NCBI GenBank assembly: GCA_029717555.1
Contig: JAMDHS010000092.1
Location: 17,247 to 81,246, forward strand
DNA from: Peribolospora baueri
Lineage: Eukaryota > Basidiomycota > Peribolosporomycetes > Peribolosporales > Peribolosporaceae
Length of the DNA stretch: 64,000 bases
Reading direction: 5' to 3'
Under the pieces are notes generated by a model. It had not been told where the DNA came from. It made no database searches and saw only the letters and a list, made by a program, of their open reading frames with translations. Shown piece by piece: positions 3,049-20,010 of this stretch. Within the stretch, counting starts at the first letter, position 1. Every line of letters begins with the position of its first letter. A program made the position numbers and the translations under genes.

Positions 3049-3641
3049 GAGGCAGCATCCGACTTGATCCGATCGGTCGATCGACCCGCGCGCGCTATGC
3101 ATTCGTATAGCGCCGGGAGATGCGGGGCGGAGGAGGGACCTGATGTTGATGGACCCGACCCATCAAGGCAAGTAAGGTCTGGGGTACCTTGCCTCCAGCT
3201 TTTCTGTCTGAACAGCGGGGTAGGACTTGGCGGCGGTGACCAGACCAGGGCGGTCGTCGCTCGATGATGTTGGGATGGGAAGCCCCATCGCCCGTGAAAT
3301 GGAACGAACGCTCGCTCGCTGATCAAGCTCCGTGTCCGCGCCGCCAGTCCGTCCACATCCGCCGTCCCTCCATCCTGCTCGTCGCATCCACTCTCCCATC
3401 CTCGCACCTACGACGCCTCCGCCCACGCGTACCCACGCTCGGTCACCGTGACCCGCTCTCGGCGGCGGAAGATCGCATAGTTTGGTCAAGCGCCTGTTCC
3501 TGTTCCGTCTTTGTCGCCGACCTACCTCCCTTTCCGAGGTCGTTCGACCCGACGACCCAGCTACAGGACCCAGTACCGCCGTCTGCAGTCGACGACGGAG
3601 GAGGCAGATGCGGATACGGATACCGGACGAGGACGCACCGC

Positions 3642-3726: not shown

Positions 3727-6700
3727 ATGTCGACATCTACTGCCCCGTCTTCCCACGGTGCCACCCCACCCTCTCATCCTTTCTCGACCCTCCCCGCAGA
3801 CAATCCAGTCTCGCCTTTCCCCTGCCTCTCCGGCTTGCGCACCAGTGCCCTTCGCCCCCATCCCGGACCTGACGTCGACGCCCTTGTTACCGATGACGGC
3901 AGCGTCGTCGAAGCGAGCCTCAAGGTCGCGGCGGACGATCTTGGCTGGGACGAGGTGGAGAGGAGGGAGAGCGAGTGGAAAGTTCACCGAGGCACAGTAG
4001 CGAGTGCCGCTTGGGCCGTGTTGCTGGTAAGTGCAGATAGGAAGACATGCGAGCTTATCGACGATCGGCGGCGTGTACCTCAGACCTCACCCAACTGCGA
4101 CTGTGATCGTCCCTAGACGCATCTCTCCGAGTCGGACAACCCCTTGGAGGACACGACGACCATCAAGTCGGTCGTTTTTGCTTCCTCCTTCACTGGTTCG
4201 GACCAACTCGTGCCTCTCCGGGTACACGGCCTGGGCAAAGAAGCGACGAACCGCCAGGTTGTCGAGGAATTGAACGAGCAACGGATCGCCAGGCGCAAGG
4301 GCGAATCAAGCTGGTCGCAAGTCTGGGACACAGCTTTGATCGTGGATGGAAGAGGAAAGGCTGCTGAGATGGCCAAGTGGAAGGACGCCACGGGACCCGG
4401 AAAAGACGTGAGTTTTCCTCGCGAGTGAGTGAATGTCCACTATGGTGGTCACCACCGGCTCAGGTCACGTTTCCACCCCACTTTCTCGTTTCAGCTTGCT
4501 CTGCTCTTGAGCATCTCCAAGCCAGAAGGCACTTCGGCCTGGACCATGCTCGCCCGCTCTTTCCACCCGCTCTCTAGCGGCTCCTCGCTGAAGCTTCTCC
4601 TCCGTCAGCTGCTGGCCACTTTGATCTATATCGTCCGTCATCCATCCTTGCCTGCACTCGCTCTCGCTGGCGGCTGGGGAAGGGACGCGCCGGAGATGGG
4701 GAACGGCCCTTTTCGCGAGGATTTGCTCGCGTCGAACAACCCTCGGCCTGTTCAGCTCTCTCATTCGACCGGCACCGGAGGGTTGAACGATGAACTCTTC
4801 CATCACCAATTCGAGCGCGCCGCACGTGGCACAGATGAGGACAAGCTCGCCTTTTGGTTCAGGTGGGGCACGTCCGACGAGTACGATCAGGCCACCGAGA
4901 AGAAAGAAGTGAGGTGGACGTATGAAGAGCTGGACAGGCGTGCGGAGGAGGTCAAGGAGAAGCTCTGGCGGTGCGGTGTGGGCAGAATCCGCAGGGCCGA
5001 AGACGAGACCAAGGATCACATCGTCGCTCTGTATCTCGAGAAGAGTCCGGAGACATACGTCGCCATTCTAGGCGTCCTCAAGGCGAGCGCCTCCTCATCC
5101 TTTCTTGACACTATCCGTCAGTCGTATTGTGGATCATCAGTCGACTGTGATCGTCCTAACATGTGTTGCTTCTTGCCAAAAGGCCGGCGCAGCTTTTTGT
5201 CCCATCGACACCTCCACGCCAGCCAAGCGACGATCCTCCCTTCTCAGCCGGTCGGGTGCCTCTGTCGTCCTCACAGCCGGTGACGCCATCTCCTCTGCTC
5301 TGGAGCAAGTGCGACCGTCCCACATGACGGCGATCCACATCGACCGTCCGGGCTGCTCGGCTCAAGGACATTCTGAGCCATTCGAGCGCGAATCCCACGG
5401 CGTGCTGAATGGTCATGTGGAGGAGTTTGGCAAGGAAAGAGATGTCACGCCGGCCGATTTGGCCTATGTGATTTGGACGAGCGGCACCACTGGAGAGCCG
5501 AAAGGCGTAGGTGTTCCACACGCCAGGTGAGCTCTCGTCTCGTCTCCGCTGACGGATGCCTGCAGCGACGTGTCCTTCTTTGACCCGTCTCAACGGGCCT
5601 GCCGAACGTTCACATTGACATTATCTTTTTTTTTTTTTTCTTTTTGCGATGGCGGTTCCTTTCCGAAGCGCCGTGCAAGCTCTTCGAGCACTACAAGACG
5701 TTATCCCACGCGGTGAAGGCGATGTGCGCTATCTGCAGTTCAGCGAGTACAACTTTGACCTGATGATCATGGATTGCTTCTACGGTGAGGTCTCAAACAG
5801 AAGCCTTTCTGGGGTTGCTGGGATGAAACGTCGGCTCTCCTGTCTTTCCCATGGCTGATCCTTCGCTTTCGTCTCCCGTCTTCCAGCATGGGGTGTCTCT
5901 GGTGCCATTTGCACTGCGCCACGGAGCCTGCTCCTGTCGTCTCTTATCCCAGTTTGCAACGTCTTCAATGCTACGCATACGCTATTGACCCCTGCCGTCC
6001 TTGCCGGCATGCCGAGGAACGATATTCCGACCATGCGCGTGGTCGTCAATGGGGGAGAAAAGCTCAGTGAGGTCGTCGCTGACGAGTGGAGTCGACATTG
6101 TTGCTTGCTGAACGTGAGTCGCCACAGGCTTCCACTGAATAAGGTCCTGTGAGGTCGTCCGGGTTGAATCGACTTCCGCCTTTCCTACCTGATCTTATTT
6201 CTCTAGCTTTACGGCCCGGCGGAGGCGACATTGATTGCAATGAGTGAGCGTAGGACGGCAGACCGACATGTTGGACCATCTCGTGGCCTGTATGACTGAA
6301 CCGTTCCACATTTAACCGCAGATCGACGCGTGCCAGAGGGAGACGTTTTTAAGGCTCCAAACATTGGCGTTGCCCTGCCCACCGTCTCGACGCACGCTGT
6401 GAACGGAAAAGGCCAGATCGTCCCAAAAGGGGCGATTGGGGAACTCGTCCTCGGCGGCTTTCAACTCGCCAGGGAGTACATGAACGCTCCCGAGAAGACG
6501 GCGGACAAGTTCGTGGATCATCCTCAGCTTGGTAGGGTCTACAGAACTGGCGATTTGGTGCGTCAGCTCGCGGACGAGAGCTTTGAATTCCTCGGGAGGG
6601 ATGACGATCAGGTCAAGATCAATGGGATTCGGATCGAGCTATTGGGTGAGTTGTTGCAAAAGGACTGCACAAGATAGAGGCGGCTCTAAGGGCCTTCTCC

Positions 6701-9700
6701 TTTCTGGTCCATGTAGAGATCAACGCCGCTCTCAAGGGCTCTCATTCGTCTGTGACGGATTCGGAGACGATGGCCGTCCCTCGGGGCAACGACGTCATGA
6801 TCGTCGCCTTCTTGGTCGCTCCTCTCTCTGCTCCAGGAGACGCGTTCGTCCGACTTGACGATGAAGCTGCCGAGGTGGCGAGGGGGGCGCGACAGTGTGC
6901 TCGCGACACTCTGCCAAGCTACATGGTTCCTTCTCTCGTTGTCGTCCTCTCCAGGTTTCCGCGCACGTCGTCCGCCAAGATTGACAGGGTCGCTTTGAAG
7001 GCCTATTTGGCAGACTTGGACGTGCTCGAATGGGAGAGGAAGATCGGAGGGGAGACTCCAGGTGACGACGACGAGGCTACCTGGAGCGGGGTTGACAAGA
7101 AGCTGAGATTGTGGCTGGCCAAGATGTGCCATGTTCCGGCGGGAAGGATCGGCCGGGGAACACCTTTTCCAAGCCTCGGACTTGACTCAGTATGTCTCCC
7201 TAGCACTCTGTCTGAAGTTAGGGTTTGCTCTTGGCTGTGGGTGACGAGCTTTTTGTTCAAATGCCTTTCCACAGATCAAAGCCATCTCTTTCTCTTCTCA
7301 CCTTCGAAGCGATGGCATCTCGGTCTCAGTGGTGGATATCGTGGAAAATCCCACCATTCGTCAGCTAGGTTCGCTCCTCGCTTCCTCTGCTGCAGGAGAG
7401 GCGCGAGCGGCACGGACCAAGCGAGCGGCCGAACGCCTTCACGGGTTCGACTCTCACTTCCGACCATCTGTGCTCAATAGCTTGCAGCTGAAATCTGAGA
7501 GCATAAAAGCAGTCTTCCCGGCTACCTCACTGCAGGAGGGCATGTTGTCGGAGAGTCAGCGCCGCGAAGACTCGTACTGGCTTCACAGACTCTTCCGCTT
7601 GTCGGACGATGCGGACCTCCAACGGATTCAGAAGGCCGTTGAGATGGTTGTTGATGAAGTCGACATACTACGCACGGGCTTCGTGGACGTTGGTCAGCTG
7701 GACGGAGCGGCGCCAAGAATGGACGGCTTCCAACCGTGAGTACAGGGTGTCGATATTTTAGAGAAAAGGATAGCTCAACATATCTGGCACGTTTTTGGCT
7801 GGTAGTGTCTTCCTCCAGGTGGTGTACAACTCGATCTCTCAACCCGCCTTTGGACACTTGAATCTCTCTCGTTACGAGGACCCCGAGTCGACTGTGTTGC
7901 AGTGGTCGCGAGTCGGTTTACCAACGAGCCTTACCGGCCGGCCACCTCTCGCGTTCGCCTTCATCAGCCAAGCCTCTCGGCGGTGGATGTTAATGAAAGC
8001 GCACCACAGCATTTACGGCGAGTTGGAAATAACAGTAGGCTCTCATGAGTGCTCATCCTTTGACTTATTCGCGACCTTGCCTCCTGCGTTTCTAGACGGC
8101 CAGTCTCTACGTTTGATCCAGGAACGCATTAGACAGCGATACCTCGGTCAACGAATACCACCGCCCATCCCTTTTTCTGTTTCCCTACATCACGTCGTCC
8201 CCCTCGATGAGCAAGAGACCGAGGACATGTCTCGTGTCTGGGAGCATGCTTTGGGCAACTATCCCAAATGCCAGACACTTTCCTTCCCGGACCTTTCTGG
8301 CACGACCGCCCCTTCACCGAAGGCTATCAGCAAGCACACTAAAATCTCGTCAAGTTCGTCCTCAGATGTAGATGCGGCATCCAGGTCTTTGGGAGTTTCT
8401 TCCCGTTCGCTCTTGCAGGCGGCGTGGTGCTGTCTTTTGGCCGCATATCTGGAGACCGACAGTGTCCTGTTAGGAGACTCTGTTTCTGGACGAGATGGCG
8501 ACGTGGATTTGGCTACAGTACTCGGACCGGTTCTGTCGACTCTAGCTGTCCCAGTCGTCCTCCAGGAGAGGAGCACACGCGCAGACGTCGTACGTTCTAT
8601 TGACGCATTCCACCGCTCCGTCGCGAGGCATCAACATATTCCACTGAGTCGCGTACGCCGCATCCTCGGCACGCCGACGAATCAGCAGCTCTTCCAAAGC
8701 GTCTTCGTCTTGGAACCTGAGCCCGACTCCTCTCGCGAGGGGGAGCAACGGAAGAGCCCTGGCCTATGGTTTGACGGTGACCTTGGCATCGACGTCGAAC
8801 ATCCAACAGCGCTCGAGGTTCAAAAGGACGGCATGGGTAAATTTCGAATTACCCTTCTCAGGCAGACGAAGCTAATCTCTGCAGAGCATGGAGCCCTCCT
8901 TCTCGACCAGTTCGATGCCATGCTTTTCACCTTCATCAGCGATCCATCCGGCTCTGTTGAGACCTCATTTTTGTCTTACCCAAGAAACTTGCTCTCTATT
9001 TCTCACAATCATCTGAACGAGACTCCTCAAGAGAGCTACGACGTAGTTACTAGCCGTATTTCACGCCAAACCCGATCCCGACCTCACGCACCCGCACTTA
9101 CTTTCGCCAGCTCAATTGCACCTGCACACGTCGAATGCACGACATTAAATTATCAAGATCTTGAAAATGTACGTATGCCCACCCGCCCCGTTCGTACTTC
9201 TGTTTTCTCGCCGACTGACATGTCTATGCGCCTCGCAGGCATCTAATCAATTGGCTCGATATCTGCACACCCGAGGATACCTCAACAAGGTTGTAGCTGT
9301 CGCTCTTCCGCGCTCTGTAAACACTTATATCTGCATGCTCGGAGTCCTCAAGGCTGGCAATGTGAGTGATTCCTTTGCTTGTCTTTACTTTGCTGACATC
9401 GCGTTGATGACATGTGACACCATCTCCTTGACCTGGCCGTCGCAGGGTGAGACCAAGTTTGATCCTGTGTTGTCGTCGATGTCAATCGTTTTGACTAGCA
9501 AATGTTTCGCCACCAGTCTTCCTCCCTATCGATGTGTCCTTACCGGCCGAGCGTCGCAAATTTCTAGCCGCAGACGCCGAGGCGAGCTTGGTTTTCACAA
9601 ATACTCATTTTTCCGCCGATTTCGGCTCGAGCTCTGTTCCTGTCGCTCTTGTTGATGCGGAGGATTACAAGTCTGCCGTTGGTCGTGAAAGCAAAGGACC

Positions 9701-12700
9701 ATTAGACGCTCATATCCGCCCGGATGACCTTGCTTATATTCTATACACCTCGGTAAGTTCGTAGATTCCGATGTTTAGGCCACTTTTCAAGGAGGTACTG
9801 CTGACGTTTGTCTCGATACCAGGGCACGACAGGCAAACCGAAAGGAGTCAAGATCAGCCATGGAAATCTCGGTAAGATACGGACGGATATGGGATGACCC
9901 AAGAGAAGCTTGCTGATTTCAAGGCACTCCCTCATCATCAATCCACTGCATAATCCAGACGCTGCTATTGAAGGCTTTCGTCTCATGTATGAGAGAGAAG
10001 CACCAGGATCCCTTTTGGAAGCTCGATTTCTCGGTGAGACAAAGCTTTTGCAGTTCCATACTTGCGACGATTTTCTGAAACCCACATTTCTCATTAACGG
10101 TACAGCACGGTCTCCCGAAGCTTTCGACGTATCTTTCCTTGAAACGTTCCTTCCTCTTGTTGTAGGGGCTACCATAGTCACGGCCCCCAGAGAAGTCCTC
10201 CTTGCCGACCTTGGGTAAGTACAGTTGTGATGAAGATATCGGCATACCTTCATTGACATCTGCCTTCCCTAACCAGCTTGACTTTTACCAAACTGGAGGT
10301 GACGCACGCGTGGTAAGGATAAGCTATTCAATGCGCCATCTAATATCATGTATCATGTTCAGAGGACCCTTCTTTTGACTCCATTGTTATCTGCTCACAG
10401 CATGGTTCCGAGCCTGTTGCATTCTCAAGGAGGCAAGCTATTTCCTGCAAATCTTCCATCACTACGTGCATTAGTTGTAGGAGGTAAGGGCCGCATGTTT
10501 CGCTGAAAGCTTCGGGAGCATGTGCCTCTTCATGACTATGTGCTTCTGACGGCTTTTTCTAAGTAGGCGAGAAGCTGTCTCAAGATATCATCGACCGCTG
10601 GGCGGCGTCCGGTATACCCTTGCTGAATGCTTACGGTACGTTTTTTTTCTCCTTTCGCTATGACACAATATGCGGGTGTGCTTCACTGGAGGCTTATGTA
10701 CGTGTTAACGATATAATACTGCATTTAGGTCCCAGCGAGTGAGTGCACAGTTTCCACATTGATATTTTATACCAATCTCACGCGATTGATAATCTGAACC
10801 GACCAACCAGAGCTACCATCGGCATTTCCGTCGCTCGGGTTCTCAAAGGTTCGACGACCCGGAATGTTGGCAAGCCGTTCTCTGGAACCGAAGTCTTTGT
10901 CATGAAGCTTGTGGATGGGGATATTCAGCCTGCGCCACGGGGAGCTACCGGCGAGCTTTACATAGCGGGGGCCCAGGTGGCTTGCGGCTATCTCAAACGA
11001 CCGGATCTGAAAGCTTTTGCAAGCTGGAAAGGCCGTACCTTGTACCGCACGGGGTCAGCGCCATCGTCGGACTTACTTTCATTCTCGTCTCTGAAGATAG
11101 CAGACTGACTATTTGCTTATCTTCTTTCTTATCTTGACATTATCAGGGACGCCGCTCGCCTCTCAGTCCACGATGAGATTGAGATACTTGGGAGAATTGA
11201 CGACGATAGCCAGGTCAAAATCAGAGGCGCAAGTGAGTTCCAGGGCTTCCGTTCTGTCCTAGCTATGTCATTTACTGAGGCCGCTGAATTCCCATTTCGT
11301 GAATGTTGTCCTCTGGAAGGGCTTGAGTTGGAAGAAGTTTCTGCTGTGCTTCGTAAAGCCGCTCTTCCTGTGGTGTTACAGGTCGTCTGTTTGCTGGCCT
11401 CTCACCCGGAGCTACCTCGGGAAGTCCTCGTCTCATTTATAGTCCCTCCAGCGAGCCCGCCACTCAACAACGTCCTTACGGTCGTCGATGACCATGCCGA
11501 GCTGGTGAAGAACCTTCATATCAGGATCCGGAACGTCCTTCCTAGCTACATGCTGCCTTCATTCATTGTGCCTATCTCAACAATCCCACTTGCGCCGGGG
11601 TCCTCCAAAGCCGATGCCACAACTCTAAAGAATTTCTTTGCTAGGACTTCTCTCGCCCATCTACGAGGACTCAGGCCGGATGAAGACCGCGCACTCAGTC
11701 AAGACGAGATCAAAGTTTTCGACATCATGCGTAAGGTGCAAGAGAACTTGCCTAAGTTGCTCAGCCCCTCTGCAGACATTTTCAGTCTCGGCTTTGACTC
11801 CCGTAAGTTTTTTTTTGGCCATCTTTATGCGTGCATGCCGTAATGAAGCGTGTAGGGAAAAGCTCTCACCACACCATACTTCTTATGCAATTATGTCACT
11901 CAGTCTCCGCCATTCCGCTGGTCTCAAAATTGAGGCAGGAAGGTTGTGACATCAGTCTTTCCCAAATCATGATTGAGCCGAGCATAGAGCGCATTGCTCG
12001 ACGATTTAATTCAAGCCAGACAGCTTCTGCAGAGGACGATTCTGCTTTGTCACCTTGGAACAAGCTTGGACCGATGCTCAAGCAGAAGACAAGCCAATAT
12101 CTCTCCATACCGGCGGAGGACATCTTGGTTGTTATGCCTTGTTTGCCTCTTCAAGCTTCTCTCCTCACGATCTCGGCATCGTCGGAGAAGGCGCTGTACG
12201 TCAACGAGGTACTGCTGGAGCTTTCGCCACACATTGACGCAGATCGTCTACGTAGGGCCTGGGAGGATGCGCAAGCGTCAAACGAGATCCTGCGCACTGT
12301 CTTCTGTGACATCGAGGGCCAATTCCAGCAGGTTGTGTTACGACACTCGTCACTGTCTTGGGACGATGTCTATATCACCGATGAGGAGCTTTCCTCGGCT
12401 CGTCAATGCTACCATCAAATTAGTGCCGTCGACATCACTCAAAACGTTCACTCGCGGCCTCCCTTTCGATTGCGCCTGTGGAAACAAGATCGCAAAACTT
12501 GTCTTTCGCTTTGCATCCATCATGGTCTTTACGATGGAGAGTCGCTTCGGCTGCTTCTTCGAGACGTGGAGGACCACTATCTGGGTCGGTCCCTGAGCCC
12601 ATCGCCTTCTATGCATCCGATTGCGAGACAGGCGTTCAAGGTCGCCAAGGACCCTGCGACTAAAGCATTTTGGGTTTCGACGCTGGAAAATATCACGATC

Positions 12701-15700
12701 TCCGACTTCCCTACTCTCACCGGTCTGCGGACAACCGCCGGTTCCCGGGAATCGGAGTCGGCACGCTGCTGCATACCATTGTCGAAACTCAAAGAAGTCG
12801 CGCAACGTTGCGGGGTAACCTTGCATACCTTAGCGTTGACAGCCCAGGTTTCGTAAGTTGACTGCTTTCATATTGTCGATTGAAGCCGTTCACAAATCTT
12901 TGTTGTATACGTTGTCTGGCGCAGCCTTCTGTCCAAGTATTTTGGGGAAGGTTAGTGGATTGCTTCTGCTCCGCATCTTCCGGTGTCTACTTGAGACTGA
13001 TCACCCATCTGCTTGGCAGACGATGTCACCCTCGGTCTTGTCCTGAGCGGGAGATCCTTGACGTTAGACGGTGTCGACGTCAGCAAGATCCGGGGACCCT
13101 GCGTGGCGACTTTACCATTTAGGGTCACGAAAATTTGGGATCGACTTCTGCCCGAAGCCGTGCAGAAGGCATACACTGCAATTTTACCCTATCAACACAC
13201 AGCCCTTTCATCCATCTCAAAATGGCTGAAGCAAGAGCGGCCCCTCTTCGACACACTCTTTTCCTTCGTTGTGAAGTCTTTCACCTTTTACGAATTGTGG
13301 ACCGAGGCCTCCTCCGTCATGGACACAGGAGTGAGTTCTTCTAACGTCTATAGTATCTATCCTATATTGCACTCACACGCCTCTTCCCGCCATCGCCGTC
13401 ATAGTATCCTCTCGCTTTGGAAGTAGAGGTCGACAACGAGGCAGACGCGATAAACCTACAGCTCATATACGACTCCGGCAGGCTCCCGGCGTCACAGGCA
13501 CGGCTCTACCTGCAACACTTCGACACTATCTTGCAAGGAATTGAAGCTACAATACAGAGAGCAAGTAACAACCTTCCTACGACGAATCTCCTGTCTGTTA
13601 TCAATAGTCCACCTCTCTTTCCGACGGTAAATGATACGTTCCTCGGCCGCTTTAACTCCGTTGTCGCAACACAACCTGAAGCTAGTAGGTTTTATATGCT
13701 TTCCGAGAGCTCAAACTTCTTTTTTTCGGAATGCTGAAAAATATTCTCCAATTCCCGGCTTACTTGAATAGTCGCTATCGAATGGTACGAGGCCTTGGAG
13801 AAAGAGCCTTCGTGCTGGTCATATCAAGAACTTGACAACGCGAGTAATGCCATCGCCGACCGGGTTAATGAAGAACAGGGATCGACTATTGCAGTTTACC
13901 TTCCGAAAGCGCCACTACTTTACGCCGCTATGCTCGGGTGCTGGAAAGCTGGCAAGGCGTACCTGCCTTTGGATCCTGCTTTACCTCGCGAGCGGATCGA
14001 GGTGAGAATAGTTCTTAACAAATCTGCATTTGCACCTTCCGACGTGTTTGTTCCTGAGCTCGTTCTATTGCGTTTTGCAGTACATGCTGCATACTGCGAA
14101 TCATCCTCCAGTGCTTTGCAATGCAGATGGGGATATCTTTCTTAGACGCCTTCCTGGCATCAACACAGTTATCCTCAATGAGCTATCAGTGTCTTCAACT
14201 CGGCCGGCGAATATTTCACCTCTGGAGTCCATAGCCTACGTTCTATTTACCAGGTAAGTCGTTGGACACCATTCTTGTTCATTCCAGATGGCGCTTATGC
14301 CCTATTGTTTTCGTAAATGGCGAAGTGGAAGCACAGGGCGACCGAAGGTGAGGCGAGCATGGCTCATTTTTCGGAAACAGCGGCTAACGTTCTTCTCATA
14401 TGTTGATACAGGGTGTTGAAATTAGTCACAGGGCCTTGGCCGGAGCGATCCTGTCCTGGCAGGACATGCTACCGCATCAGTCCGGATGGCGGATGCTGCA
14501 AGTGAGAGTGCATTTTGTTGACTTCAAGTTGCTGTTGCACTACTGAAGCAGGCTGTCCTATCCAATAACAGCTGGCATCGTCGGGTTTCGACGTTGCTAT
14601 ATTTGAGCTGTGCTTTCCCCTCTCCTCCGGCATGACGGTCACTAGCGCATCAAAGGAAGTCCTCCTTCAAGATGTAGCATCAGCCCTTGATCGTATGAGG
14701 ATATCAGTTGTCGACCTGCCGGCAGCGCTTGCGTCTTCAGTCTATCGTAGGGATGTTCCCAACCTCAGTGAGTTGTTTTGTTGCGTTCGCTCCATGTGTA
14801 CATGTCCTCACGGATCGAGTGTGATTTCGGCTAGAATGGTTAATGAGCGGAGGAGACGCCATCTCAGACGATGTCCTGCAAGAATGGGGCGATACTGGAA
14901 TGCTGATCAACGCATACGGGCCGACAGAAGGCTGCATCGGGAACACGCTGGGATTGTAGGTTGTTTCTCCTAGTTTTAACGAGGTCACGCTCTGCTAGCT
15001 TCTGACAAGCCATTCTTCGATTGACCGCCTTGCAGTGTGGCCTCAAACACTCTGCGCTCTGTTGTGGTGAGTTTGCTGCTCTGCCTTAGACATCGCGAAC
15101 GGGCTGACAACCGTCAAGGTTTTATCTTGCACATCAGGGAAAACCTTACCCGACGAGTTCGATCTACGTCCTGGAGCCTGATAGCGTGAGGCTTTGTCTT
15201 GTCGGCTGCATAGGCGAAATTGTGAGTCGTGGCTAGACCATTTGCATTGCGTACCAACCTATGAGAAGTTGAACTCTTTTTCCGTTTTAAGGCCGTTGGG
15301 GGGTCGCAGGTGGCCGAGGGCTACGTGGGCCGGGTCGACTTGACGCAAGAGAAGTTTGTGCGCCTGCCCGATGGCTCCCGTGTATACCGAACGGGAGACC
15401 GAGGTCGCATCTTGTCCAATGGCTTAATTGAATGTCTGGTGAGGACGCCTGTCCACGCCGCGTTGCTTTCTTTTAAATTTTTGAAAAACTCTTCCGACTC
15501 AGACGCGTTCATCCCACGTTGTAGGGTCGCATCGAGCTCGGGCAGGTCAAGATAAACGGACAAAGAGTGGTATGTGCTAATTGAAGTCTGCCTTCCGGTT
15601 TTCGATCTTGCCTTCCGCTATCGATCTAATTGGCTTTCCCAAATTAATTTTCGTACGTGTAGGAGCTCGAAGAGGTCTCGTCGACCTTGAGACGTCACCC

Positions 15701-18700
15701 GAACGTACAGGACGTGGACACACAGTATTTGCAGCACCCGTCTTTCCCATCTCGCCAGCTTATCTCCTTCTTCTCTTTGAACTCCAGAGCTGCACCAACT
15801 CTATCTCCAACAAATAGCAGGGAAGCTGAGGTACAATCAGGACTTGGTCTTCGGGACGATGCGTTGGCCTTTGACACAATGCGCGAGGTCGTAGATGCGG
15901 TAGCGGGAAGGTTACCGGCCTACATGCTTCCGAGCATTCACTTGGCTTTGATCGGAGATTTGCCCCTCACTCCAAACAACAAGGTCGACAGAAACAGGTT
16001 GGCACGCCTGTTTGTCTCAATGGACCCTCAACGCCTGCGCGAGCTGAGCTCGACGCACGCCGTGAACGGTGGGCATTGGAGTCCGCGGGAGCTTGAATTG
16101 CGTAGTCTGCTAGCCGATCATTGTGGGGTAACGGAGGAGCAAATCACTCGAACGACATGTGAGTCCGTTTCCTGTCCTCAGAAAGTTTAGACCTCGCCAC
16201 TAACGAGGCATAACGTCAATCTTTGGCAGCATTTTTCCATCTGGGCTTTGATTCCCTTTCGGCTCTACGCCTGACTCGGACTCTCAAAGGGACAGGCTTG
16301 AATGTCAACGCAACTGATATCATGCAGAGACCATCCATCGCGCAGCTCTCGTCTTTAATGGAGACGAAAGCTTGTCGCGTCAAAGAGGTGTCAACAGCTA
16401 CTCACGCCTTGTGGCAACAATCTGTCAAAGCGGTCGATCAGAATGCAATCAAGCTCAGTGCGGAAGACGAGGTCACATGCGTCTTCCCTTGTACACCGCT
16501 GCAGAGTGGTATGCTTACACAGGTAGGTGCTGCCTCGCGGGATTATTGACGCAAGATGGTACTGAAAGTCATCTTCCCTCCCGCCTGCCACGACCTCAAG
16601 ACGTTGACGTCGAAATCCCAGCTATGTGAGTTGCCCCTTCTAATTTAAATCAAGGAAAGAACACCATGTGCTGAACACGAAGTTGCTGTACAATGGCAGA
16701 CTTCAACCACTTTGCGTTTGTTCTTCATTGTGACGCCAAGGAGATGGCGGCGGCTTGGAAGCGGGAGGCAGAGCGACTGGACATCCTTCGCACGACGTTT
16801 CACTCGACTGACTACGGATGGGTCTCAGCAGTTCATCGCTGGGTCGAGGTCCTGATTGAAGAGGTTCAGCTCCCGTCCAAGAGCGAACTCCATCAATATC
16901 TTGCGCGATCGCATGTCGAAAGCTCTGACGCTGAGGTCGTCTTTACTCGGCCCCCATGGAAGCTGACCATCTTTCATTTTGAACGACAAGCGTGGCTCGT
17001 AACCACCTTGCATCACTCGTAAGCACCGTATAAGCTTTGCACTGTGTAGGGTAGTTTGCTTATATAAGGCTTTACTTCGTATTTTATTCTTGTTCCTTTG
17101 CTTCAGGCTTTATGACGGACACTCCCTGCCCCTTTTGTTCGACGACGTCGCTAAAATCGTTCAAGACGGAAGTCCAGTGACCCGCCTGTCCTTCGCCGAA
17201 CTGGCCCCACACCTGCTCCCCTCGGCTGAGGATACGAGCTACTGGGTAGACGCTCTAAGAGACTATTCTTCTTCGCTCCCGCTGTCGCGGTCCAAGGCAA
17301 CGGTAGCGGAGGCATCCCGGCCATTGTCTGTCTCGAGATCACGTCTCACTCAAGCAGGAAAGCTTTTGGGTGTCTCACCACACTCTCTAATCACCCTTGC
17401 CTTTGCAAAAGCGCTTGCATCTCTCGCCTCACGCCGCGATGTGGTTTTCGGTCAAGTGCTCTCGTTGCGGGATTCGGTTGACGGTGCCAACACGACGATC
17501 GGACCAGCTTTCAATACCTTGCCGACAAGGGTATTCTTTAACGACGATAGCCGTACGTCCAAAGAGCAGCTCCAACTTGTTCAAGCGGCTGACATGAAGG
17601 GACGAACACATCGCGCTGCCAGCCTTCGAGAAATTCAGTCAGCGCTAAAGACGCGCAACGGGGATTTACAGCTTTTCGACTCCATTTTAGTGTTTCAGCA
17701 ATTGAACGAGAAGGAGAACAGCTCAGATACCAGTGTCTGGTCATCCATTCGTCTCGAAAGCCCCTCGCTTCCCCAAGTGAGTTGTGCTTGGTTCTTCATT
17801 CTCACTGCTCTTTTGCTTCGCCTTATTGATTTTAATTCTTAACTGCCCACAGTATCCTATGAATGTTGAGGTCACGCAGACCGGTGAACAACTTGTCTTA
17901 GAAGCAGCGACAACAATCCTCGACTGCGACGAAGTAGCATCTTTTATTGAGCGATACAACGTCATTCTCGAGGCCATGCTCACCGATCCCGACCAGCCGG
18001 CGATAGCCCTTCCTGATGGATACGGCCCACTTCCCACCCTCCAAGCAACAAAGTTACGTCTCAAAGAAAGAGCTAGCCCCTCGTGTCTCTATGACAATGG
18101 AGACACAGAGCCCCTGACCGAAGTGCAGTTGGCAATTCGACAAGTCGTCGCCGAGACGGCTAACGTCCAGGTCGACGAAGTCCGCCTTCGCACGCCTCTG
18201 ACGATGTTTGGCCTTGACTCCATCTCGGCAATCCGGATTGCCTCTCGATGTCGCAAGCTCGGCGTCCAGATCCGGGTAGGGGACGTTATACAAGGACGAC
18301 ACATTCAAGGGATCGCCGCTCGTGTTCGATCAGATGCCATAGCTGATGGGTTGGCGAAGGATGCAGTGGACGTCCAGTGGAAGGACGAGAAACAGGCCGT
18401 TACGGACGTCCTACATCTTTCACCAGAAGACGTCGAGGTTGTCTTCCCCGTTCTTCCGGGTCAGCTCTTTTCCTTGGCTTCCTGGTTAAACAGCGGGCGC
18501 CGGTTTGGTGTTTTTTCGTGGGCATTCCGTTCTACGAGGAAGCTCGACCCGAAGAAGCTGGCCAAAGCCTGGGACGACCTGCGCGCCCGTCATGCCATTC
18601 TCCGCACGACTTTTATGGCAGGTCAGGGCCGAGGTCCTCTGCAGGTCGTCATGAGCTCGAGCGCGATCTCCAGTGGTTGGACGAAATCGACGGAGGTACA

Positions 18701-20010
18701 CCCAGACGAAGGCATGGGTCACGTCGTGCGAAGACAGCTAGTGACGATTGCTGCGGAAGCGACCGACTGTTTTACCCCACCGGTTCGTGGAGAGCACCTT
18801 CGCTTCGAAGGCTTCGACATCCTGATCATCACCTTGCACCATGCTTTATACGGTGTGTGTCCTTAATGGACGAACGGTGTGCTCACTGTCTGAGGCTGGA
18901 GCTGATCCATCTAACTTGATCCGTTGCAGATGCGTGGTCCATGCCTCTACTGGTCTCTGATCTCGAGGCTAGCTACGCTGCTGAAATGATGCGGGCCAGC
19001 GCGGACTTCCCCGATCTCGTCCGCCACATATATCAATGTCGCGACATTGATTCGGACAAACGGTACTGGCAACGGTCACTACGAGACGCCAACGAGACCA
19101 TATTCCTGAGAAGGTCAAGTTCCCCGTCGACTGCAGACATCAAAGACACCTTCGTTTTCCTGCCGTCCGTGATTCGCGATTTACAACGCCTGACCTCACT
19201 TGCCCGCGAAGCCGGTCTTTCTATTCCAGTTCTCCTGATCTCCGCTTTCGGTTCTCTGGCCGCTGAGCAGCTTGACGTCGGCAATCCCACCTTCGGATTG
19301 TACCACGTTGGCCGGTCGTCGTCATTTGCAGGCATCGAGACCCTCGCGGGCCCGACCATGACCATCTTGCCTGTTGTGGTTCGAGGCGCAAAGCGACGCG
19401 ACGGCCGGTCACTTTTGGATATGGCGAGGGTCGCCCAGGAAGACCTGGCGAGCAGGACGGAGCACGAACAGACGGGCCTCGATGAGATCCACTCTTGGCT
19501 CGGAAAAGATAGCAAGCCATTGTTCAACGCGTTTGTCAACCTGCTCTGGCTACAGGGCAGCAACGATGACCGAGAGGGAGAAAATGTTCTGTTTCAGCGG
19601 ATCAAAGTAAGTGCGGAATATACCTCTGAGCGCAGCACATATGACATTGCGCTGACAGGGGACACGTTCGCAGGTTGGCGAGCCCGTGGACTTTGCTCCA
19701 CCTCATGCTTTCACAAGTCCAACCGCCGTCGACGGGCTGGATGCACGTCTTTCAATCATAGTATGTGCCAATGAAACATTGACAAAATCCTTTTCGTGAC
19801 ACTAATTTGGGGAACCTTTTGTCTTGATTGCTTGCTGATGCTCAGGCCGACCTCAACATCGACATTGCCATCACGTCGGACGACTCCATCGGCATCGGTA
19901 TTCGGTGTCCGCAGGACTTGATGGACGAGAGGACGGCGGTGAACCTTGCTAACGGAATAGGGCAGAGGGTGGCAGTCGCAGTGGAAGCTTTGGAGAATGG
20001 CAGAGGGTGA
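3727..20010 (+). CDS. Ferrichrome-type siderophore non-ribosomal peptide synthetase
   Basis: Manual splicing gives about 48 exons and 12,486 nt in frame (about 4161 aa). The domain order is an N-terminal region (aa 1-300), then A1-T1-C1-A2-T2-C2-A3-T3-C3-T4-C4. A cores: TSGTTGEPKG (A1), TSGTTGKPKG (A2) and SGSTGRPKG (A3), with A10 lysines in SSAKID, SSKAD and NNKVD. Carrier serines sit in LGLDS (about aa 897), LGFDS (2012), LGFDS (3089) and FGLDS (3638). C motifs are HHSIYDG (1119), HHGLYDG (2221), HHSLYDG (3293) and HHALYDA (3847). There is no thioesterase, and a C-terminal C domain is typical of fungal cyclising synthetases. Known SidC/Sid2 enzymes build ferrichromes from Gly/Ser and N5-acyl-N5-hydroxyornithine. 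This enzyme has one extra T-C after the last A domain, whereas I recall two in classical SidC. The ATG at 3727 is preceded by a TATA box. Exon boundaries are predictions. Activity and product are inferred from the family. Confidence 0.9.
5083..5182 (+). other. Non-canonical GC-AG intron in the A1 domain
   Basis: The exon ends CTCAAG and the intron starts GCGAGC, has a CTAAC branch sequence near 5157, and ends AAAAG. Removing exactly this segment restores the adenylation-domain motif LKAGAAFCPID in frame. No nearby GT donor gives the motif; the GTCAGT near 5117 would insert about 12 residues into it. Confidence 0.75.
8018..8095 (+). other. In-frame 78-nt GC-AG intron splitting the C1 catalytic motif
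   Basis: The exon ends TTTACG and the intron starts GCGAGT and ends TTCTAG. Removal gives HHSIYDGQSLRLI, the condensation-domain HHxxxDG motif. The intron is 26 codons long without a stop, so a reader that ignores GC donors would retain it and break the motif between Tyr and Asp. Confidence 0.8.
9446..9446 (+). other. Apparent single-nucleotide exon in the A2 domain
   Basis: The upstream exon ends GGCAAT at 9361 and the downstream exon starts at 9517 with TCTTCC. The frame needs one extra G to read LKAGNVFLPID. The segment between them parses as GTGAGT...CGCAG (9362-9445), a single G, then GTGAGA...ACCAG (9447-9516). Both halves have normal donors, acceptors and TTGAC-type branch sequences. 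A one-base assembly error or a real frameshift are the alternatives. Confidence 0.5.

Follow-up and report, generated by a model that had tools for sequence, protein, structure and literature searches.

Predicted structure of the locus

How is the second adenylation domain of a peptide synthetase in Peribolospora baueri read across positions 9362 to 9516, where its conserved core is interrupted by what look like two introns with a single base between them? The window, by which we mean the whole stretch of 64,000 nucleotides that was analysed, belongs to an intron-rich genome assembled as 22.1 Mb in 178 contigs. An earlier note, made from the letters alone, had proposed that G9446 is an exon in its own right, and its coordinates, lengths and letters proved exact (GGCAAT ending at 9361, 84 nt, G at 9446, 70 nt, and TCTTCC from 9517), as did the TTGAC that it placed in each intron. 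The parts of this arrangement are the following.

9239-9361, forward strand: upstream exon, ending CTC AAG GCT GGC AAT (L K A G N)
9362-9445, forward strand: intron 1, 84 nt, AAT/GTGAGT...CCGTCGCAG/G, a multiple of three in length with no in-frame stop; TTGAC at 9428-9432
9446, forward strand: predicted exon consisting of the single nucleotide G, which opens the Val codon GTC (LKAGN-V-FLPID)
9447-9516, forward strand: intron 2, 70 nt, G/GTGAGA...CGCCACCAG/TC; TTGAC at 9491-9495
9517-9752, forward strand: downstream exon, starting TC TTC CTC CCT ATC GAT (V-FLPID)

A complete intron thus lies on each side of G9446, with acceptor and donor exactly one base apart. Both introns are within the normal range of scores and lengths, as 26.8% of 467 introns measure 84 nt or less and 5.8% measure 70 nt or less. 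The branch-like TTTGACT of intron 2 places its A 22 nt from the acceptor G. When 9361 is joined straight to 9517 the frame shifts and a stop follows as the 17th codon past the join; when G9446 is kept, the frame is restored and the core reads LKAGNVFLPID. The two intron-like stretches, the frame, the length of the core and the strength of the sites relative to their rivals can all be read from the DNA itself. From these features we predict that G9446 is an exon of one nucleotide between two complete introns, with a probability of about 0.85.

The host gene

The gene that carries this arrangement is a large synthetase.

4408-20010 (approximate; the gene model starts at 3267), forward strand: multi-domain non-ribosomal peptide synthetase, from the gene model, with PF00501, PF00550, PF00668 and SidN (3ite_A) matches

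Its domain order, read partly from Pfam and partly from motifs, is A-T-C-A-T-C-A-T-C-T-C. The first two of its three adenylation domains were found by Pfam and the third by motifs, and carrier and condensation domains (PF00550, PF00668) are also present. The second adenylation domain matches SidN, a siderophore synthetase of fungi, in one stretch at 296.1 bits with the earlier exon model and at 308.6 bits with the improved one; the two domains of LgrA, the top-ranked gramicidin synthetase, taken singly reach 168 and 160 bits. Because the SidN match is far above those of the LgrA domains, it supports the name siderophore synthetase under which the gene was first described, and with SidN as the closest match, the adenylation, carrier and condensation domains place the gene among siderophore-type synthetases. 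We take the product class to be ferrichrome-like, which is a guess from the domain architecture. The whole second adenylation domain reads open over 557 aa, and the region of it that holds the predicted exon is single copy in the assembly. No close paralogue of this domain was found outside the host gene in an AMP-binding search of the fungus's own genome (18 matches) or in a protein search (12 matches).

Several joins keep the reading frame

The original case for the exon was that the core can be read only if exactly one G is kept, and this argument does not hold, since other joins also keep the frame without a stop. With the flanking exons fixed, we enumerated 122 paths of at most two introns, and 23 of them are in frame and free of stops; 14 single-intron joins are likewise in frame without a stop when GT, GC and AT donors are allowed. 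Only the path that keeps G9446 and ends intron 2 at 9516, however, gives the 11-residue core, which the other in-frame paths alter. Given that several in-frame readings exist, the single-nucleotide exon must win by quality and not as the sole option. A GC donor at 9357, giving LKAVFLPID, two residues short, was rejected with a donor score of -5.72. As a separate observation, the LKAGN frame is open across both introns to 9655 (ORF 9149-9655, 168 aa), so that full retention brings no early stop within the introns.

Three of the frame-keeping paths deserve attention. Since intron 1 is a multiple of three in length and stopless, removing intron 2 (9447-9516) alone keeps the frame, leaving 9362-9445 as coding sequence that adds 28 residues to the core loop. 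This path requires no exon of one nucleotide, yet the stretch that it would retain carries a full donor and acceptor, and stopless introns with lengths divisible by three are not rare in this genome (39 of 467). The other two paths use the following sites.

9366-9371, forward strand: rival donor TGA/GTGATT, used by 0 of 467 introns, donor score 2.11
9498, forward strand: last base of rival acceptor TTTGACTAG, giving a 52-nt second intron and six extra residues, with the single-nucleotide exon kept

The first of these sites would define a single 151-nt intron ending at 9516, with one extra residue in the core (LKAGNVIFLPID, LKAGN-VI-FLPID). It holds the frame with one intron, and introns of at least 151 nt make up 8.8% of the 467. 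The second site would end intron 2 at the TAG of 9498 and insert ANVSPP.

Splice-site strength favours the single-nucleotide exon

The paths were scored with a model of introns and coding sequence that learned, unsupervised, from 57 genes with 347 introns in 200 kb of contig C101; the host gene is not on this contig. Under this model the path through the single-nucleotide exon is the best of the 23 in-frame paths, at 3.66 nats. The same exon combined with acceptor 9498 is the second-best of them, at 0.10 nats, with retention of intron 1 at -1.89 and the GTGATT donor at -3.08, which gives leads of 3.56, 5.55 and 6.74 nats, respectively. When the introns were resampled, the favoured path stayed ahead of these three rivals and of the frameshifting skip in all 200 bootstraps. 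Intron 1, with a donor of 7.43 and an acceptor of 3.86, has a total score of 1.89, above the median total of 0.67 for the C101 introns. Intron 2 (donor 5.57, acceptor 3.52) totals -0.21, between their 25th and 50th percentiles.

Donor usage bears most directly on the 151-nt intron. Among the 467 introns of the joint model, GTGAGT is used 150 times, GTGAGA 18 times and GTGATT never, and only two introns have T at +5. In addition, the GTGATT overlaps the far stronger GTGAGT at 9362 (2.11 versus 7.43). Together with its deficit in path score and the protein comparison below, this makes the 151-nt intron highly improbable. The length of the shortened second intron also counts against acceptor 9498: at 52 nt it would fall short of the 1st percentile for introns on C101, which is 53 nt.

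Two properties of these models define how the scores are to be read. Run freely, the model trained on C101 alone finds no gene between 8000 and 12000, which means that it supports the path only with the flanks fixed, and the model that chose the path through G9446 freely had the host gene in its training set. The gene finder used makes no rarity charge for tiny exons and produces false ones: 17 of its 397 internal exons are 15 nt or shorter, two of these being of zero length, and two such called tiny exons in the host gene are really 22 and 25 nt.

Protein families mostly favour an 11-residue core

Comparison with protein families ranks the readings by their translations. On PF00501, the form with the single-nucleotide exon scores 236.5 bits, the GTGATT form 229.9, the acceptor-9498 form 223.6 and the form with intron 1 retained 216.5, so that its leads are 6.6, 12.9 and 20.0 bits, and retention splits the match into two stretches. 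TIGR01733 gives 312.5 bits for the single-nucleotide exon, 306.0 for GTGATT and 292.0 for the retained form (20.5 worse), all below the cut-off of 317.4 and obtained with the earlier exon model of this domain. The NCBIfam model NF004282 points in the opposite direction and favours the retained form, at 232.5 versus 228.3 bits. Against SidN, the single-nucleotide-exon form scores 296.1 bits and the GTGATT form 290.9. LgrA is the only protein among the five alignments shown, and the core with the single-nucleotide exon aligns gap-free to both of its domains, whereas the GTGATT form has one gap in the core against each.

With G9446 kept as the only base between the introns, the three adenylation domains of the gene share a core length of 11 residues (LKAGAAFCPID, LKAGNVFLPID and WKAGKAYLPLD), and no other reading achieves this. 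Retention of intron 1 disrupts a core that keeps this length in the other two domains, and despite the NF004282 score we regard it as very unlikely. Ending intron 2 at 9498 does keep the frame, as the earlier note had allowed that a different acceptor might, but its deficits of 3.56 nats and 12.9 bits make it extremely improbable. The single-nucleotide exon stands as the best-supported reading, since its splice sites outscore those of the competing frame-keeping paths and it alone preserves the length of the conserved core. We estimated a prior charge of about 8 bits against exons of one nucleotide for their rarity. The evidence against the nearest single-intron rival amounts to about 16 bits (9.7 from splice sites and 6.6 from the protein family), and thus the conclusion survives this charge.

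Chance occurrence and a possible missing base

A different kind of explanation is that a base is missing in the assembly, or that the allele is frameshifted, and that the true structure is one 155-nt intron from 9362 to 9516. This would require no unusual exon, and the direct intron has good sites, with a total of 0.40 compared with 1.89 and -0.21 for the two separate introns; long introns also exist in this genome. However, because the core reads correctly on both sides, the missing base would have to sit within a few bases of the junction, and the rest of the domain is open over its 557 aa. There is one copy in the assembly and hence no allele for comparison. A missing base would also turn the AG-G-GT pair and the two normal intron lengths into a coincidence. 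Dinucleotide shuffling of the interior of the interval, with donor, acceptor region and flanks fixed, produced an acceptor-N-donor split as good as the observed one in 2 of 5000 rounds, and an AG-N-GT split of any quality in 1180. An equally good split with a single-nucleotide exon was absent from the 87 introns of at least 120 nt on C101, and among 4000 segments of 155 nt drawn at random from this contig it occurred once. We consider a missing base very unlikely.

Genome-wide, the pattern GTGAGT-N60-90-CAG-N-GTGAG occurs at 7 places including the present site, versus 5 in a reversed control. Four of the six other places were read by eye, with those on C22 and C146 left out. At L048 (G000:C103:90350-91250, minus strand, about 413-489), in a gene that we take to be ammonium-transporter-like, GTGAGT...CTCCAG-G-GTGAGA...CACAG leaves the protein continuous only when removed as one 113-nt intron, and just 38 nt follow the G, less than the 53 nt that mark the 1st percentile for introns on C101. 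This site reads as a natural negative control, in which the AG-G-GTGAG arrangement lies inside one intron. L047, presumably a proteasome-like gene, has a conventional exon of about 29 nt, and at L049 the second GTGAG falls within an exon. L046 allowed no structure call by eye.

Proposed splicing and comparison with known systems

In the mechanism we propose, G9446 would be flanked by two ordinary, complete U2-type introns, and intron definition would pair each donor with its own acceptor. Each intron, being complete, would be recognisable alone under intron definition. Since one nucleotide cannot serve as 3' exon and 5' exon simultaneously, removal would be sequential, in either order, giving AAT-G-TC. 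We infer that the transcript is spliced in this way, with sequential steps, and that the product is the main mRNA. Removal of 9362-9516 in one step may plausibly occur as a by-product and would frameshift; if intron 1 were retained, the protein would be full-length but its core disturbed.

Recursive splicing yields zero-length exons, in which acceptor and donor stand back to back and removal is sequential; here, one nucleotide would be kept and both introns are short. An exon of 1 bp has reportedly been described in placozoan mitochondria. According to passages of the respective papers, single-nucleotide exons are known from Arabidopsis APC11 (PMC4674806), plant APC11 and VPS55 (PMC8831610) and Fusarium CYP621A (PMC12940212), and RNA support exists for them (PMC12940212, PMC4674806, PMC8831610). 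If confirmed, G9446 would lengthen the list of nuclear genes of fungi known to contain a single-nucleotide exon, and the sequence strongly suggests another example of a rare and already known kind of gene piece.

The closest of these cases is Fusarium CYP621A, as presented in passages of that paper (PMC12940212). It is likewise a fungal nuclear gene with an exon of one G in AG-G-GT between two short introns, located inside a conserved motif and missed or mis-modelled by annotation. It differs in being a P450 gene with 20 orthologues and RNA reads, whereas the present case is a sequence-based prediction for a peptide synthetase in one genome, and its G stands second in a Gly codon, whereas G9446 would stand first in a Val codon. 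The plant APC11 and VPS55 exons, in the passages available (PMC4674806, PMC8831610), are constitutive single nucleotides between two complete introns that restore the frame, but they are conserved over land plants and reporter constructs were used as the test. The CYP621A paper, of 2026, calls itself the first for a fungal gene (PMC12940212), and in the titles, abstract starts and passages of the open-access papers retrieved we found no other fungal nuclear single-nucleotide exon, including in the available parts of PMC9024468, PMC8208691 and PMC12409088. Basidiomycete P450 microexons down to 6 bp are described in a passage of PMC1184071, and no paper linking siderophores with microexons was found in the open-access collection searched. 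Neighbouring introns one base apart also occur in fungal mitochondrial rnl, as a passage of PMC12308204 describes, but these are group II introns in an rRNA gene.

The locus had also been compared with stwintrons, in which, by the definition given in passages of PMC12403724, an internal intron interrupts a splice element of an external intron and must leave first. As an analogy this comparison is sound: in ascomycete [D1,2] stwintrons, as passages of PMC12403724 and PMC5639578 describe them, two introns share one site and are removed sequentially under intron definition, and a competing one-step splice differs by one G. As an identity it fails, because donor, branch and acceptor are uninterrupted in both introns at 9362-9516. 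The T before 9362 allows no [D1,2] or [D2,3] donor and the TC after 9516 allows no split acceptor; since neither intron interrupts the other's elements, either could leave first. In the [D1,2] stwintron, by contrast, the internal intron splits the external donor and nothing is kept between them (PMC12403724, PMC5639578, in the passages available), whereas here both introns are intact and one base would be kept. The two are mirror images, in that one-step splicing leaves an extra G in the stwintron and would lose a G here (PMC12403724).

For the origin of such an exon, the CYP621A authors suggest, in a passage of their paper, that a coding base was lost near the junction and a cryptic AGGGT exon was then adopted (PMC12940212). 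By analogy, the same sequence of events would fit G9446. It is also conceivable, though in our judgement improbable, that the exon was born through insertion of a complete intron a single base upstream of a donor already in place (between exon positions -2 and -1 of AATG/GTGAGA), which would be the exon-side equivalent of the way stwintrons form. The splicing order might then decide between the functional product with both introns out, a frameshifting one-step skip and an in-frame 28-residue isoform with intron 1 kept, and could let iron or stress switch the output of siderophore. The idea that introns 1 and 2 are duplicates of each other was rejected, with 369 of 1000 shuffles equally similar.

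Annotation and other short exons of the host gene

The earlier note expected gene finders to frameshift or truncate the synthetase, which is probably wrong, as the best in-frame path without the single-nucleotide exon is the 28-aa insert. A normal gene finder is more likely to add 28 residues silently than to frameshift. Because intron 1 is stopless and divisible by three, an automatic model might appear sound and still contain 28 wrong residues in the enzyme core. This would be a hidden annotation failure, in which the single-nucleotide exon is probably missed by automatic annotation unnoticed.

Other pieces of the host gene also fall within conserved motifs.

10729-10738, forward strand: GTCCCAGCGA, an exon of 10 nt within core A5 (NAYG-PSE-ATIG) of the second adenylation domain, with the motif continuous
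14326-14347, forward strand: exon of 22 nt within core A3 (FTSGSTGRPKGVEISH) of the third adenylation domain
16601-16625, forward strand: 25-nt exon in a condensation domain (GMLTQ-TLTSKSQLY-FNHFAF)
5083-5182, forward strand: GC-AG intron AAG/GCGAGC...CCAAAAG/GCC within the equivalent core (LK/AGAAFCPID) of the first adenylation domain

Since three of its exons within conserved motifs measure only 10, 22 and 25 nt, alongside the GC-AG intron, exons of very small size are nothing out of the ordinary in this gene. The GC-AG intron lies near, not at, the position matching the two introns of the second domain's core, and the third adenylation domain has no intron at the corresponding position. The 22- and 25-nt exons are preceded by AAG acceptors, which splice models score low, so the host gene is easily mis-annotated at several places. 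In the part of the second adenylation domain that links cores A3 and A4 (9872-10105), introns 9872-9958 and 10034-10105 were placed by homology, while the gene model jumped the whole stretch 9872-10120. Our first exon model of this domain paired donor 9872 with acceptor 10006, which left an 11-residue gap relative to homologues and was replaced by intron 9872-9958; this replacement moved no PF00501 difference among the variants by more than 0.1 bit.
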